The notes below the pieces were generated by a model. It was not told the origin of the DNA and searched no databases. It worked only from the letters and a program-made list of their open reading frames with translations. From Nitrosospira multiformis (lineage in GTDB: Bacteria; Pseudomonadota; Gammaproteobacteria; Burkholderiales; UBA11063): 28,198 bases of DNA. Both the position numbers and the translations under genes were made by a program. Of this stretch, positions 9,046-28,198 are shown in pieces; the stretch's first letter is position 1; every line of letters starts with the position of its first letter. The stretch lies in NCBI GenBank assembly GCA_020726205.1, contig DYTA01000002.1, forward strand, positions 1-28,198, given 5' to 3'.

Positions 9046-11493
9046 TTAGGCATGAACACCAGGCGTTACCGCTTTAGTTGTATCCACCAGCTTTTGATCA
9101 TTATTCAATTGAATTGTATTTTCAATTGGTAATGGTTTATATTCTAGTGCAATGTCTAATACTTGTTCAATTGAGCTAACTGGAATAATTTCTAGTTGAA
9201 CTTTAATTTCATTCGGTATTTCTTCCAAATCTTTTGTATTTTTTTCTGGAATTAAAACCGTCTTAATCCCTGCTCTTAGTGCCGCCAACATTTTTTCTTT
9301 TAATCCACCAATTGGTAATACTTCACCATATAATGTTACTTCACCAGTCATTGCGACGCTAGATTTAATTGGTACGTGATTTAGGCTTGACGCAATTGCC
9401 GTTACCATAGCAATACCTGCAGATGGGCCATCTTTTGGTGTAGCTCCATCTGGTACGTGAATATGAATATCTTTATTCTCGTAAAATTTTTCATCTATAC
9501 CTAAAGATTTACAGCGACTCCTAACTAATGTAATTGCAGCTTGAATAGATTCTTTCATTACATCACCAAGTTGTCCACTACGAATTATAGCTCCTTTGCC
9601 AGGTATTGCAATTGCTTCAATCGTTAGAATATCACCACCAACTTCTGTCCAGGCCAATCCCGTTACTCGTCCAATGCGATTTTCTTTCGCACTTACACCA
9701 AAATCATTGATTTTAATACCCAGAAACTCACTTAAATTGTCTGGTGTAATTTTAATTTTTTTGGCTGTAGTTTTTTTGGTATCAATTTGCGTTACAACTT
9801 TGCGACATAACTTACCAATCTGACGGTCTAGATTACGCACGCCAGCTTCCGCAGTGTAGTAACGAATTACGTCTAAAATAGTATTATCATCAATAGCAAT
9901 TTCACTTGCTTTTAAGCCATTATTTTTAATTTGGCGTGGTAATAAATATTGTTCCGCAATTTTTAATTTTTCTTGTTCTGTATAGCCAGACAATCTGATT
10001 ACTTCCATACGATCTCTAAGCGGACCTGGAATATTCATCGAATTAGAGGTACACAAAAACATAACTTGCGATAAATCAAATGCAACTTCAGTGTAATTAT
10101 CAGTAAATGCTTTATTTTGTTCTGGATCTAATACTTCAAGTAACGCTGCTGCGGGATCACCACGATGATCAGCGCCGATTTTATCAATTTCATCAAATAA
10201 AACTAACGGATTTTTAACGCCACTTTTAGTAATATTTTGCATAACTTTACCAGGCATAGCACCAATATACGTTTTACGATGCCCACGAATTTCAGCCTCG
10301 TCGTGTAACCCACCCAAAGCAATTCTGACATATTTACGATTGGTTGCTTTAGCAATTGATTCACCCAAAGAGGTTTTACCAACTCCAGGAGGTCCTACAA
10401 AACATAAAATAGGTGCTTTATTATTTTCTGCACGACGCTGTACAGCAAGATATTCCACAATTCGTTCTTTAATTTTTTCTAAACCATAATGGTCTTTATC
10501 TAATATTTTTTGGGCTTTATCTAAGTCGCTACTAACTTTTGTTGTTTTTGCCCATGGTAAATCAATTAAGTGTTCAATGTAATTGCGAACTAATGAGCTT
10601 TCTGAAGACATTTGTGGCATCATTTTTAGTTTTTTCAATTCTGACGTTGCTTTTTTGACCGCTTCTTCACTCATTTTTGCTTTAGCAATTTTAGATTCTA
10701 ATTCTTGAACTTCATTCTGTTCTTCAGCTTCACCTAATTCTTGTTGAATTGCTCTTTGTTGTTCATGTAAGTAATATTCTTTTTGATTTTTTTCGATTTG
10801 CTGCTTAACTCGTCCTTGAATTTTACGTTCAACATTTAAAATTTCAATTTCACGGTTTAATTCACGTAATAGTAAAGTTAATCGTTTTTTGAGAGATGCA
10901 GTTTCTAGTAATTCTTGACGCATAGCTAAATCAACAATTACATGCGTGATAATCACGTCGGCTAATTGCTCAATATTTGTTATTTTGGCGATAATAGATA
11001 CCACTTCATCAGGTACTTTTTGGTTTAATTTTGCAAACTCATCAAATAGTTGAATTATTTCACGTCGTTGCGCCTCTAGTTCAATTTTACTGATATCTTG
11101 TTTGGTTTTTAACTCTTCTACTTCTGATGCTAAAAGACCATTTTTATCTTCAATATTTAAAGCCTTTGCTCTAGTTTTACCTTCAATTAGAACTTTTTTT
11201 GTTCCATCTGGTAGTGGTAAAATTTGTAAAATTTTTGCGAGTGTACCAGTCGTATGTAAATTTTCTGGACTAACGTCATTATCTCCTGGATTTTTTTGAC
11301 TTAGTAAAATTACTTGTTTATCTTTTTTATCAGCAACTTCTAAAGCATTTATTGATTTTTGACGCCCAACAAATAATGGGACTACCATATTTGGAAATAT
11401 TACCACATCTTTGAGAGGGATAATTGGAACCAAGTTATCTGCTATTTCAATATCAGTAGTGATATTGCTGTTATTGTTATCTTGTGTAATCAT
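9046..11493 (-). CDS. lon: ATP-dependent protease Lon
   Basis: An 815-residue LonA protease, slightly longer than E. coli Lon (784), with a short extra polar C-terminal tail. It unfolds and degrades damaged and short-lived regulatory proteins in the cytoplasm. The N-terminal substrate-binding domain starts near residue 20 and is followed by a coiled-coil stretch (about 200-290). The AAA+ module has Walker A GPPGVGKT (367-374) and Walker B VLFDEIDK (431-438). The protease domain has catalytic Ser691 in KDGPSAG and Lys734 in GGLKEK. AAGGA lies seven bases before the ATG. It follows spoT by 29 bases and is probably co-transcribed with it. I see no convincing heat-shock promoter in that gap, although one could lie inside spoT. 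A terminator follows. Confidence 0.98.
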   Translation of the reverse strand: MITQDNNNSNITTDIEIADNLVPIIPLKDVVIFPNMVVPLFVGRQKSINALEVADKKDKQVILLSQKNPGDNDVSPENLHTTGTLAKILQILPLPDGTKKVLIEGKTRAKALNIEDKNGLLASEVEELKTKQDISKIELEAQRREIIQLFDEFAKLNQKVPDEVVSIIAKITNIEQLADVIITHVIVDLAMRQELLETASLKKRLTLLLRELNREIEILNVERKIQGRVKQQIEKNQKEYYLHEQQRAIQQELGEAEEQNEVQELESKIAKAKMSEEAVKKATSELKKLKMMPQMSSESSLVRNYIEHLIDLPWAKTTKVSSDLDKAQKILDKDHYGLEKIKERIVEYLAVQRRAENNKAPILCFVGPPGVGKTSLGESIAKATNRKYVRIALGGLHDEAEIRGHRKTYIGAMPGKVMQNITKSGVKNPLVLFDEIDKIGADHRGDPAAALLEVLDPEQNKAFTDNYTEVAFDLSQVMFLCTSNSMNIPGPLRDRMEVIRLSGYTEQEKLKIAEQYLLPRQIKNNGLKASEIAIDDNTILDVIRYYTAEAGVRNLDRQIGKLCRKVVTQIDTKKTTAKKIKITPDNLSEFLGIKINDFGVSAKENRIGRVTGLAWTEVGGDILTIEAIAIPGKGAIIRSGQLGDVMKESIQAAITLVRSRCKSLGIDEKFYENKDIHIHVPDGATPKDGPSAGIAMVTAIASSLNHVPIKSSVAMTGEVTLYGEVLPIGGLKEKMLAALRAGIKTVLIPEKNTKDLEEIPNEIKVQLEIIPVSSIEQVLDIALEYKPLPIENTIQLNNDQKLVDTTKAVTPGVHA

Positions 11494-11522: not shown

Positions 11523-13634
11523 CTAAACTCTTGTTGCTTTAACCACAAAATCATGATCGATTATACTTGCTAATAATTCATCTATTTCTTTAGATGAGTG
11601 ACTTGTTATCGTTAAACGAACATTTACTAAGTTGTGATTTTCATGACGTTCTTGAAATATTTCTTCCATATTTATTTGTCTTTCGGCAATTATTGATGAA
11701 AGTTTATTAAATGTTCCTGGCAAATTATCGATCGTAATCATAACTTTTGATAAAAATTCCATATGTATATCATTTAAGATGGTGATGGAAACTAGTTTAT
11801 CAAGACCAATTGCTTTATTTTTACGACAATTATGGCGGTGTAGTTCTAATTCACCTTTTCTATTGATTTTACCTAAAATCACTTCATCTGGCAAAGGGCA
11901 GCACAGTTCATCTTGAATAATTGGTAAGTTACAATTGCTTAACTTGATTGGTAATGGTTCTTCTTCTGTGAGATTAATTAACTCTCGTACAACTTTTAGA
12001 ACTGGTATTTCATTAATTCCAATTTTTTGTTCAAAATCATCTAATGCCAGGCGACGATATTTTTTCTTAACATAATCATTGAGTAATTCATCACTAGCAA
12101 CTAAGTCACTACCAACTATATTTAATCCTATTCCAATTAGTTGTATTCCATTACTTACATCATCATCATATTTTTGTTCTTTAAGATATTGTTTAATTTT
12201 ACTAATAGCCCGACCACTTACTGCATAATTTAGCCATTCACTATCTGGTTCACTATCTAAAGATGTTGTTACATCAACGATATCTCCGTTTTGTAATTGA
12301 TAATTCAATGGTACTGAGTTTTGATTTACCCTTACACGATAGCAGCGGTTGCCAATATCCGTATGAATAGTGTATGCAAAATCAATCGGAGTAGCACCTT
12401 TTGGTAAATGAATAATTTTACCTTTAGGAGTGAAAGTGTATATACTACTAGGAGACAAATCTTTTTTTATGTTTTCAAGAAAATCAGTTGCTGAAAATGT
12501 ACTTGATTGAATATCTAAAATATTTTTTAACCAATTTGAGGTGTGTTTATGAACTGAGTTGTCTTTTTCTTGTAATTTTAGACCATAACTCACCACTCCC
12601 CGTTCTGCAATTTGTTCCATTTCTTTTGTGCGTATATGGATTTGAATCGGTGTACCATTTGGTCCAATCATTGTTGAGTGGAGGGATTGATAACCATTGC
12701 TTTTGGGTACAGCAATAAAGTCTTTAACTTTACCTGGTATTGGTTGATAAATACTATGAATTACACCCAATGTTAAATAGCAGTCACCAATTGTTTCAAC
12801 AATTACTTTTATTTCAAAAATATCATAAATTCTATTAAAAGCCTGTTTTGTTTTTAACATTCTGGTATATAGATTATAGATTGTACGCTGACGGTATTTA
12901 AATTCGCCATTGATTCCATTTGACTTAAGTCCATTATCTATATTTGTTAAAATGTCTTGAATTACTGGAAGTCTATTTTGGTGTGCTTTTTCTGCAACTG
13001 CAGATAAAACTTTATAGCGACATGGGTATAGATACTTGAAACTTTCTTCTGCTAATTCTAAGTGAACTTTATGAAGACCTATTTTATTCGCAATTGGTAC
13101 ATAAATTTCCATAGTTTCTTGCGCAATCTTTTTTTGCTTTAATGGACGCATAGATTTGAGTGTCATCATATTATGCATACGATCTGCAAGTTTTATCAAA
13201 ATTACTCGCACATCTTTTGCCATTGCTAAAACTACTTTGCGAAAGTATTCGGCATGTGCGGCTTCTTCTGATTCGAAATGGAGTTTATCTAATTTGGTTA
13301 CACTATCTACTAATTCAGCAATACTGATACCAAAAATACGGGTTAATTCTTCTTTACTGACATCTGTATCTTCGATAACATCATGCATTAAGGCACCAGC
13401 TATGGTTTGCTCATCTAATCCCCATTCAGCAATTAGAGTTGCAACTTCAATAGGGTGAGTTATGTACGGCTCACCACTTTTGCGAAATTGTCCCAAGTGT
13501 GCATGATTAGCAACCTGAAAAGCTAACTCAATGGTCTCAATTTGTTTACCATGCATTGTTTGTCGTGCTGTTTGCAGTAATTTACGACGCAAATTATCAA
13601 CTAAAAGCTGATAGTCACCATGATTAATTTCCAT
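11523..13634 (-). CDS. spoT: (p)ppGpp hydrolase SpoT (RSH family) with a substituted synthetase site
   Basis: A 703-residue full-length RSH protein with HD hydrolase, synthetase, TGS and ACT domains in order. The hydrolase site looks intact: His60 in YITHP, His84-Asp85 in ALMHDVIEDT, and Asp151-Arg152 in KLADRMHNM. The synthetase domain keeps KSNGYQSLH (311-319) and Asp271. However, the catalytic Glu of the usual VEVQIRT motif is Gln331 (codon CAA at 12644-12642, motif IQIHIRT). The REKHLYSI-type motif reads RQRTIYNL (248-255), and the usual AAHWxYK reads VSYGLK (348-353). From family knowledge the Glu is needed for ppGpp synthesis, so I infer a hydrolase-only enzyme. TGS (about 397-460) and the C-terminal ACT domain (about 630-703) are present. 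The gmk-rpoZ-spoT order is classic; it lies 27 bases after rpoZ. Confidence 0.95.
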   Translation of the reverse strand: MEINHGDYQLLVDNLRRKLLQTARQTMHGKQIETIELAFQVANHAHLGQFRKSGEPYITHPIEVATLIAEWGLDEQTIAGALMHDVIEDTDVSKEELTRIFGISIAELVDSVTKLDKLHFESEEAAHAEYFRKVVLAMAKDVRVILIKLADRMHNMMTLKSMRPLKQKKIAQETMEIYVPIANKIGLHKVHLELAEESFKYLYPCRYKVLSAVAEKAHQNRLPVIQDILTNIDNGLKSNGINGEFKYRQRTIYNLYTRMLKTKQAFNRIYDIFEIKVIVETIGDCYLTLGVIHSIYQPIPGKVKDFIAVPKSNGYQSLHSTMIGPNGTPIQIHIRTKEMEQIAERGVVSYGLKLQEKDNSVHKHTSNWLKNILDIQSSTFSATDFLENIKKDLSPSSIYTFTPKGKIIHLPKGATPIDFAYTIHTDIGNRCYRVRVNQNSVPLNYQLQNGDIVDVTTSLDSEPDSEWLNYAVSGRAISKIKQYLKEQKYDDDVSNGIQLIGIGLNIVGSDLVASDELLNDYVKKKYRRLALDDFEQKIGINEIPVLKVVRELINLTEEEPLPIKLSNCNLPIIQDELCCPLPDEVILGKINRKGELELHRHNCRKNKAIGLDKLVSITILNDIHMEFLSKVMITIDNLPGTFNKLSSIIAERQINMEEIFQERHENHNLVNVRLTITSHSSKEIDELLASIIDHDFVVKATRV

Positions 13635-13661: not shown

Positions 13662-13868
13662 TTACTCAACTTTTGCTAAAATTGTTTTATCAATTTTATC
13701 TGCAGCAATTTCTCGTAGTGCAATTACTGTTGGTTTGTCTGATTCTTCATGTTCAATCAGTATATCTCCACCTTTTGCAATTTGACGAGCACGCAATGCT
13801 GCAGCAATAGTCATGTCAAAACGGTTGTTAATTATTTCCATACTGTCTTCTACTGTAAATCTAGCCAT
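13662..13868 (-). CDS. rpoZ: RNA polymerase omega subunit
   Basis: A 68-residue protein of normal omega length. It helps assemble the core RNA polymerase by clamping the beta-prime subunit and forms part of a ppGpp binding site in E. coli. The N-terminus [20 protein letters not shown], followed by [11 protein letters not shown], is the conserved omega signature. AAGGA lies nine bases before the ATG. It sits between gmk and spoT, the usual arrangement, which links GTP supply, ppGpp turnover and the polymerase target of ppGpp. Confidence 0.96.
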
Positions 13869-13882
13869 TTTATATTTTCCTT

Positions 13883-14491
13883 TTATTGTATGTTAAATTG
13901 ATTTTTTATAACTTCTAACATTGATTTAGTTTTGTTTCTTGGGGCTCTAATTATACTACATAAATCTTGCAATGCAACATCAAAGCTATCATTGACAATT
14001 AAATAGTCAAATTCTGATGCATGACTTATATCATCCAGAGCTAAATCTAATCTTTTTTGTATCACTTCTAAGCTATCGGTGTTACGGTTCCTAAGCCTTT
14101 GTTCTAAAGTTGCTAATGATGGTGGTAAAATGAATATAAGTACTGCCTCATTAAACAGCTTACGAATTTGTCTTGCTCCTTGCCAATCTATTTCTAAAAT
14201 TATATCTTTGCCAGTTGCTAAGAAGTCTTTAATTGTATTGATGTTAGTTCCATAGTAATTACCATATACACAGGCATACTCAAGGAACTCGTTGTTACCA
14301 ATCATTGTTTGAAACTCATCATTTGTAACAAAAAAATAATTAATTCCATTTTTTTCGCCATCACGGATTGGTCGTGTAGTATGTGATACCGATAGTTGTA
14401 CCTGTGGATCTACATTGCATAATGCATTGACTAAGGTAGATTTGCCTGCTCCAGATGGTGCTGCAATGACATAAATTTTGCCACGATTCAT
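13883..14491 (-). CDS. gmk: Guanylate kinase
   Basis: A 202-residue cytosolic kinase that converts GMP and ATP to GDP and ADP. The P-loop APSGAGKST is at residues 11-19. [20 protein letters not shown] (39-58) is the GMP-binding signature, and [11 protein letters not shown] is also characteristic. Length is typical. It is the first gene of the minus-strand gmk-rpoZ-spoT-lon block and is transcribed divergently from tatD. Its ribosome binding site (AGGGA) lies rather far, about 12 bases, from the ATG. GMP kinase is itself a known ppGpp target in many bacteria, which fits its position beside spoT. Confidence 0.97.
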
Positions 14492-27360: not shown

Positions 27361-28198
27361 ATGGTTACCATCAAAAGTAATTTTAATGATGTTCAGAGTT
27401 GGCTTGAAGTGCAAAAACAGCACTTTAGTACACATGAAATTGAACAATTTGAAAAAGCAATTCATATTGCAGAGCAATTTTATTTAGGTAAGAAATTTTA
27501 TCCGACTAATCTTGATTTATTGTTACATGCTTTAACCTGTGCTGATAAAATTGCAAATTTACATTTATATGCAGATGCAGTTACTGCAACAATTCTTTAT
27601 GCGTTGCCTTTATGTTGTAAAAATTGGGTTGATGAGGTTACAGTATTTGACAAGAAAGTTGTTGAATTAATTGATGGTGTCAATCGAGTAACGCAAATTC
27701 GTAAAATTGGTGATCTTGATCTTAACATGGATGAGCAAGAGAAGAAAACTCAGATAGAGATTATCCGCAAGATGTTATTAGCAATGGCTAGTGATATTCG
27801 TGTTGTTTTAATTGTATTAGTTGGTCGTGGCGAGTTGATGTTGCATCTTAAAAGTTGTGAAGATACACAATTGCAGCACAAAATAGCATTAGAAACTATG
27901 GAGATTTTTGCACCACTAGCGAATCGGTTGGGTGTTTGGCAAATAAAATGGGAGCTTGAGGATTTATCTTTCAAATATATGCATCCAGATCAATATAAAA
28001 TAATTGCGAAACTATTGGATGAAACACGCCAAGAGCGATTAGATTATATTGAAAATATGAAATTGTTTCTTGCTAATCAAATGGAAGAAAGCGGAATCCA
28101 CAACTATCAAGTATCAGGACGAGCTAAGCATATATATTCTATTTGGAAGAAAATGCGTAAGAAAAACTATGATTTTGATGGCTTGTATGATATTCGTG
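27361..28198 (+). CDS. relA: GTP pyrophosphokinase RelA (partial, N-terminal part)
   Basis: The frame opens at the ATG at 27361 with AGGA upstream and runs off the right edge after 279 codons. It is an RSH protein: the N-terminal domain is a degenerate hydrolase, and the synthetase domain begins near residue 210. Where SpoT in this window has ALMHDVIEDT, this protein has TILYALPLCC, so the HD pair is gone; KLADRMHNM is replaced by VLVGRGELM. FAPLANRLGVWQIKWELEDLSF is a RelA/SpoT signature. GRAKHIYSIWKKM (253-265) is the canonical synthetase motif, and Asp277 in YDIR fits the metal-binding Asp. This pattern marks a monofunctional, ribosome-linked RelA. The catalytic Glu, TGS and ACT domains lie beyond the window. 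Confidence 0.94.
   Translation, partial: MVTIKSNFNDVQSWLEVQKQHFSTHEIEQFEKAIHIAEQFYLGKKFYPTNLDLLLHALTCADKIANLHLYADAVTATILYALPLCCKNWVDEVTVFDKKVVELIDGVNRVTQIRKIGDLDLNMDEQEKKTQIEIIRKMLLAMASDIRVVLIVLVGRGELMLHLKSCEDTQLQHKIALETMEIFAPLANRLGVWQIKWELEDLSFKYMHPDQYKIIAKLLDETRQERLDYIENMKLFLANQMEESGIHNYQVSGRAKHIYSIWKKMRKKNYDFDGLYDIR

Follow-up and report, generated by a model that had tools for sequence, protein, structure and literature searches.

A probable hydrolase-only SpoT with an altered synthetase site in the Aquella clade

The window, the 28,198-nt stretch of DNA analyzed here, encodes a SpoT that is very probably a (p)ppGpp hydrolase only, with a dead synthetase domain. The protein combines two features expected of a hydrolase-only SpoT at the residue level, an intact set of HD residues and the loss of residues critical for synthesis. 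An earlier note on this DNA had proposed such a protein from a Glu-to-Gln change at the synthetase catalytic site; this reading is now supported by further losses in the same site, by the intact HD domain and by an intact RelA in the genus. The window forms a single contig in a genome of 1.04 Mb and 69% completeness, whose genus we regard as Aquella as GTDB defines it.

The spoT locus and the residues of its two catalytic sites

The minus strand carries, in order, gmk, a small ORF, spoT and lon. We presume the small ORF to be rpoZ, which spoT also follows in E. coli. A relA gene, starting on the plus strand about 14 kb from spoT and directly behind a dgt-like gene, is cut by the contig end. 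A promoter scan around spoT returned 34 sites compared with 29.4 expected. The features are given below; the bounds of the HD and pseudo-synthetase domains are our choice.

9046..11493, minus strand: lon protease, downstream of spoT (profile match)
11523..13634, minus strand: spoT, a long RSH of 703 aa (translation and profile matches)
12585..13064, minus strand: predicted pseudo-synthetase domain, residues 191-350 (profile match, altered residues and model)
12636..12638, minus strand: His333, aligned with the catalytic Gln325 of Rel_Seq
12642..12644, minus strand: Gln331, codon CAA, at the catalytic Glu (Rel_Seq Glu323, E. coli SpoT Glu319)
12678..12704, minus strand: guanine-side loop, residues 311-319 (Rel_Seq K304, N306, Y308 and H312), key residues unchanged
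12822..12824, minus strand: Asp271, the metal acid Asp264 of Rel_Seq, kept in the window SpoT (alignment)
12861..12893, minus strand: altered ATP-side motif, residues 248-258 (K243 to R250, S247 to N254, K251 to R258; R241 kept as R248)
13065..13547, minus strand: HD hydrolase domain, residues 30-190, catalytic residues intact (residue comparison, RHHDEDDHNT)
13662..13868, minus strand: 68-aa ORF upstream of spoT, putative rpoZ (sequence and position)
13883..14491, minus strand: gmk, guanylate kinase (profile match)
27361..28198, plus strand: the first 279 codons of relA, which the contig end truncates ahead of the Glu323 position

The window SpoT carries HD, RelA_SpoT, TGS and ACT domains in one chain, the domain content of a long RSH. 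Matches to HD_4, RelA_SpoT and TGS lie above the profile cut-offs, and the ACT match is weak and below its own. The RelA/SpoT family model TIGR00691 scores 622.7 bits, above its cut-off, and PRK11092 scores 609.8 bits, below its cut-off of 947. Identity to matches from other families is 39-46% for SpoT-type and 27-38% for RelA-type proteins, which places the protein, as judged by identity, closer to beta- and gammaproteobacterial SpoT than to RelA. Its HD motif is of the SpoT type.

The codon at 12644-12642 and the translation confirm Gln at residue 331, and the motifs quoted in the earlier note (IQIHIRT, RQRTIYNL and VSYGLK) are present in the 703-aa translation. Gln, and not Glu, occupies the catalytic position in both alignments, under Glu323 of Rel_Seq (1vj7) with HMMER and under Glu319 of E. 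coli SpoT with MAFFT. Three observations go beyond the earlier note: Gln325 of Rel_Seq is replaced by His333 (HMMER), the adenine-stacking Arg269 by Lys276, and Asp264 is kept as Asp271. On the ATP side, Lys243 and Lys251 are both Arg; we take these lysines to be the counterparts of the ATP-phosphate lysines of RelP. By their numbering, we also take Asp272 and Gln347 of Rel_Tt to correspond to Asp264 and Gln325 of Rel_Seq. These two are reported to be the catalytic residues of Rel_Tt (PMC9974481). Asp264 and Glu323 are described as the catalytic, metal-coordinating residues (PMC7983052). In the same account the adenine is sandwiched between Arg241 and Arg269; the residues listed for guanosine are Tyr308, stacked against the guanine, Asn306, residue 305 and Ala335.

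For the hydrolase site we compared ten residues characteristic of the RSH family. All ten (RHHDEDDHNT) are identical to both Rel_Seq and E. coli SpoT, and the hydrolase motifs are thus intact, as had been claimed. The Glu-to-Gln change is a known laboratory route to a synthetase-dead enzyme: E. coli SpoT E319Q, the same substitution at the aligned residue, is reported to be severely synthetase-deficient with ppGpp decay unchanged (PMC6085430). This allele is a single change in an otherwise working site, whereas in Aquella several residues of the site are changed and the changes are fixed across the clade. Since the E319Q change is here joined by others in the same site, synthesis would be expected to be lost and hydrolysis kept.

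We propose that the HD domain would remove the 3' pyrophosphate from (p)ppGpp, and that the synthetase domain would fold without carrying out pyrophosphate transfer, its metal acid being Gln, its catalytic Gln being His and its ATP-holding residues being changed. The pseudo-synthetase fold is retained in the predicted structure of the window SpoT; with a pTM of 0.60 for the model and an rmsd of over 20 between full-length chains, this result extends to the fold of the domain and not to the compact tau state known from A. baumannii SpoT. Most (p)ppGpp would probably come from RelA. The dead domain may persist as a scaffold that regulates the hydrolase, as has been shown for A. baumannii SpoT, and its retained guanine side may in addition still bind GDP or GTP.

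The altered site and RelA across the Aquella clade

The altered SpoT site is an old trait of the whole Aquella clade and not of the window genome alone. Gln323 and His325 (Rel_Seq numbering from here on) occur together in 16/16 SpoTs of the same genus that cover the site, and in 0/37 from other families of the order. The 23 genus genomes comprise these 16, four with a fragmentary SpoT missing the site (G004, G007, G010 and G017) and three with no spoT in the assembly (G001, G006 and G021). In G004, spoT runs to the contig end. An assembly gap is likely in G021, because a gmk fragment lies at the start of one contig and lon on another. An assembly error or a lone oddity as the source of the altered state is ruled out by its clade-wide occurrence.

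Among the best 120 of 7,999 scored proteins, 81 of the nearest 90 have Gln at 323. The states at 323/325 in these 90 are Gln/His in 80, Glu/His in six, and Gln/Gln, Arg/His, His/His and Glu/Gln in one each; the 30 that follow (P0092-P0121) are all Glu/Gln. Asp264 and Glu323 are kept together in 0/104 clade rows and in 39/39 outgroup rows, the outgroup consisting of 37 families of the order, E. coli and N. gonorrhoeae, with P0092-P0121 and the divergent G060 not included. The 264/323 pairs in the 104 clade rows are Asp/Gln (83), Asn/Gln (12), Asn/Glu (6), and Glu/Gln, Asp/Arg and Ser/His (one each). As the clade rows hold near-duplicates, with one genome entering via two sources, a set thinned to below 90% identity was also made; here too 0/77 rows keep both acids (Asp/Gln 64, Asn/Gln 5, Asn/Glu 5 and three singles). 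P0090, in which Asp, Glu and Gln are intact, covers 49% of the query and is considered to lie probably outside the clade; it was excluded from the clade counts and the tree, and the short sequences P0079, P0085, P0088, P0089 and P0091 were also excluded from that tree.

Across the clade rows, K243 is R in 98/103, S247 is N in 99/103, K251 is R in 92/103 and R269 is K in 98/105, with His at 325 in 103/104; Asp264 is kept in 85/105 and Arg241 in 94/103. The HD residues are intact in 75 of the 77 thinned rows, the other two being one sequence with a single change and one fragment.

Six proteins (P0049, P0065, P0066, P0069, P0073 and P0076) have Asn264 with Glu323, the mirror of the usual Asp/Gln pair. 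They form one group (SH-aLRT 99-100), which two quick trees nest within the Gln clade. A regain of Glu323 in these six is not claimed, as the AU test (p 0.22) leaves the alternative placing unrejected.

RelA of the genus has the synthetase Glu and Gln intact in 18/18 sequences covering the site, and its HD residues are degenerate, which makes RelA the likely source of (p)ppGpp. In the window, the relA fragment has an intact first synthetase motif, GRAKHIYSI, and degenerate HD residues. At the level of the genus, SpoT is therefore accompanied by a RelA predicted to be able to synthesize. RelA was not found in G004, a relative that is 94% complete, which fragmentation may explain. Another (p)ppGpp synthetase acting in place of RelA was considered and rejected; extra RelA_SpoT matches occur in 5/23 genus genomes (G005, G006 below the cut-off, G007, G009 and G015). 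A family search found no RelA_SpoT match besides the two long RSHs in G000 and G016 (A. oligotrophica). Three of the extra matches, G007:C168 (L240), G015:C4 (L241) and G009:C182, are frames of 330-344 aa with one RelA_SpoT domain each, and an IEIQLRT or IEFQLRT motif, with its Glu, was read in the L240 and L241 frames. The match at G005:C108:31000-32700 (L242) is weak and lies in a 537 aa frame, 481 aa of it within the stretch read.

Constraint on the synthetase domain and alternative readings

In the thinned clade, Lys243 is changed to Arg in 73/77 rows, Lys251 to Arg in 70, Arg269 to Lys in 71, Glu323 to Gln in 70 and Gln325 to His in 76; Arg241 is kept in 69/77 and Asp264 in 65/77. Lys304, Asn306, Tyr308, His312 and Ala335 are unchanged in 77/77 and Lys297 in 76/77, and guanine-side site 305 is variable. 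A concentration of the changes on the ATP/catalytic side (5/7 sites compared with 1/4 or 1/7 on the guanine side) is not significant by Fisher's test (p 0.24 and 0.10), and the number of unchanged guanine-side sites behind the contrast is five to six. This pattern suggests that the guanine-nucleotide half has been kept and that the pseudo-synthetase may still bind GDP or GTP and regulate hydrolysis. Guanine-side retention is not unique to Aquella, since three altered SpoTs from other families (G160, G090 and G088) keep the same five residues, and it may have a structural reason.

The altered domain could instead be functionless and drifting under relaxed selection, in which case SpoT would still be hydrolase-only. 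In line with such decay, at an HD identity of 0.7-0.8 the mean synthetase-domain identity is 0.66 within the genus (44 pairs) and 0.73 in other families (263 pairs), and decay of the domain in G060, which belongs to a different family of the order, has gone beyond these motifs. Plain decay is nevertheless unlikely given the five residues that are unchanged throughout the thinned clade, whose most divergent members are only ~50% identical to the window SpoT. The synthetase domain also has a dN/dS of 0.017 in the single pair (1/7) with dS below 1 in every domain. Moreover, over the same pairs the TGS domain (0.60 within the genus, 0.75 in other families) and the C-terminal part (0.40 and 0.60) differ more than the synthetase domain, indicating greater divergence of the regulatory half than of the dead synthetase.

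Another reading keeps SpoT weakly bifunctional, with Gln331 and His333 forming an altered but working site in which Asp271 holds the metal. Because Asp264 and Arg241 are mostly kept and the Lys/Arg swaps are conservative, weak residual synthesis is compatible with the sequence; the guanine-side residues are also kept in most rows, and the high conservation of His at 325 could mean that it is used. We consider this quite improbable, because E. coli SpoT reportedly loses significant synthesis through E319Q alone (PMC6085430), and because Asp264 is replaced by Asn, Ser or Glu in 20/105 clade rows, which a working metal site could hardly tolerate. Conservation of the Gln-x-His pair across the clade, without drift, would also fit an altered site with new chemistry, giving another nucleotide product or hydrolysis. 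We know of no precedent for this, the ATP-side and metal residues are both changed, and Gln itself is replaced by Glu, Arg or His in 8/104 rows; this reading is the most improbable of those weighed here. A hydrolase-only SpoT, which we infer to have lost synthesis and to have kept hydrolysis, remains the preferred reading, after counting against it the six Glu323 clade rows, the intact P0090, the relative G004 without RelA and the cut relA of the window.

Hydrolase-only SpoT in other lineages

Loss of synthetase function in SpoT has been reported for Moraxellaceae (PMC3153485, PMC9974481), so that, as the earlier note recognized, the principle is not new. In A. baumannii, a dead SpoT beside a live RelA was shown experimentally; the pseudo-synthetase is reported to exert control over hydrolysis, with RelA as the apparently only alarmone source (PMC9974481). 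Reduced hydrolysis has been proposed as one route from iron starvation to raised (p)ppGpp (PMC12742793). The SpoT[Hs] of Moraxellaceae (A. baumannii, PDB 7qpr) and that of Aquella are alike in being long RSHs with an intact HD domain and lost synthetase-critical residues, and in having a partner RelA with a live synthetase and a dead HD domain, in Aquella as judged by residues. They differ in the route of loss. In A. baumannii SpoT, Asp is replaced by Ser, the catalytic Gln by Thr and the guanine-stacking Tyr by Asn, and GDP is reported not to bind (PMC9974481). In Aquella the Asp is mostly retained, Gln and His stand in place of Glu and Gln, and the guanine side is kept; the loss of both Tyr and Asp seen in Moraxellaceae does not apply, as Tyr is kept in 77/77 and Asp in 65/77 thinned rows. 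The bifunctional SpoTs of other Burkholderiales, Neisseria and E. coli share the domain order and HD residues of the Aquella protein and, unlike it, keep Asp264, Glu323 and Gln325 (39/39 rows, without G060).

The loss in Aquella appears to be an independent case, as the earlier note had suspected: 37/38 other families of the order keep Glu and Gln, and the 38th, G060, has decayed differently. The SpoT of this family (G060:C1:4256800-4259400, L238) combines intact HD residues with a synthetase domain in which the known motifs have been lost to decay; synthetase residues are intact in the RelA of the same genome (L239). A full-text search, covering top-ranked results and few subscription papers, found no report of hydrolase-only SpoT from any betaproteobacterium, Aquella included, and the terms ppGpp, stringent and spoT are absent from the main text of the A. 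oligotrophica paper (PMC6612550). Hydrolase-only SpoT is thus known as a kind, and Aquella adds a further lineage and residue route for which we found no earlier report.

To survey SpoT more widely, one genome per family was taken across the class, giving 114 genomes with that of the window. Of these, 112 matched at E 1e-100 or better and two (G063 and G076) did not; the best matches of 109 genomes were fetched, and G065 and G102 were handled separately. The fetched matches comprise 107 SpoT-like and two RelA-like proteins (G064 and G074). Asp/Glu/Gln is found in 103 of the SpoT-like proteins, and the site is altered in four: G160 (Asn/Asp/Gln), G090 (Gln/Glu/Gln), G088 (Asp/His/Gln) and G124 (Glu/Ala/Lys). 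Re-examination of the poorly matching genomes showed an altered SpoT in G102 and the three residues intact in G065. Altered SpoTs therefore number 5/109 in the class survey and represent six families once G060 is added. The five survey loci are L216, L217, L218, L221 and L225 (G160, G090, G088, G124 and G102, respectively). Lys304, Asn306, Tyr308, His312 and Ala335 are partly kept in G124 and G102 and not in G060. All six genomes also hold a long RSH with intact synthetase residues and degenerate HD residues; in G160 one TAA was reported within the stretch matched by this RelA-like protein. Some of the survey genomes with an altered SpoT may be Moraxellaceae. In G063, which is 97% complete, the only RSH match (G063:C16:43082-43894, L227) is a 287-residue frame ending inside the synthetase domain.

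With six more families carrying an altered SpoT, each paired with a RelA that keeps its synthetase residues, loss of synthesis by SpoT seems, from these residue patterns, to recur across families. A broader proposal, which we put forward tentatively and hold to be rather doubtful, is that the altered domain is a half-site nucleotide sensor: the ATP/metal half would have been retired and the guanine half kept under selection, so that GDP, GTP or the product tunes the hydrolase. Its companion claim, no firmer, is that SpoT synthesis is lost recurrently where RelA is present, by different residue routes. If the sensor proposal were true, SpoT in Aquella would sense the level of guanine nucleotides and no longer make ppGpp, in contrast to the A. 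baumannii protein, which has lost GDP binding. The half-kept site lends itself to asking if guanine-nucleotide sensing, and through it control of the hydrolase, can outlast the loss of synthetase activity. Aquella, a betaproteobacterial genus whose cultured type strain came from tap water, would together with the six families make the split between making and breaking (p)ppGpp a repeated and comparable outcome.
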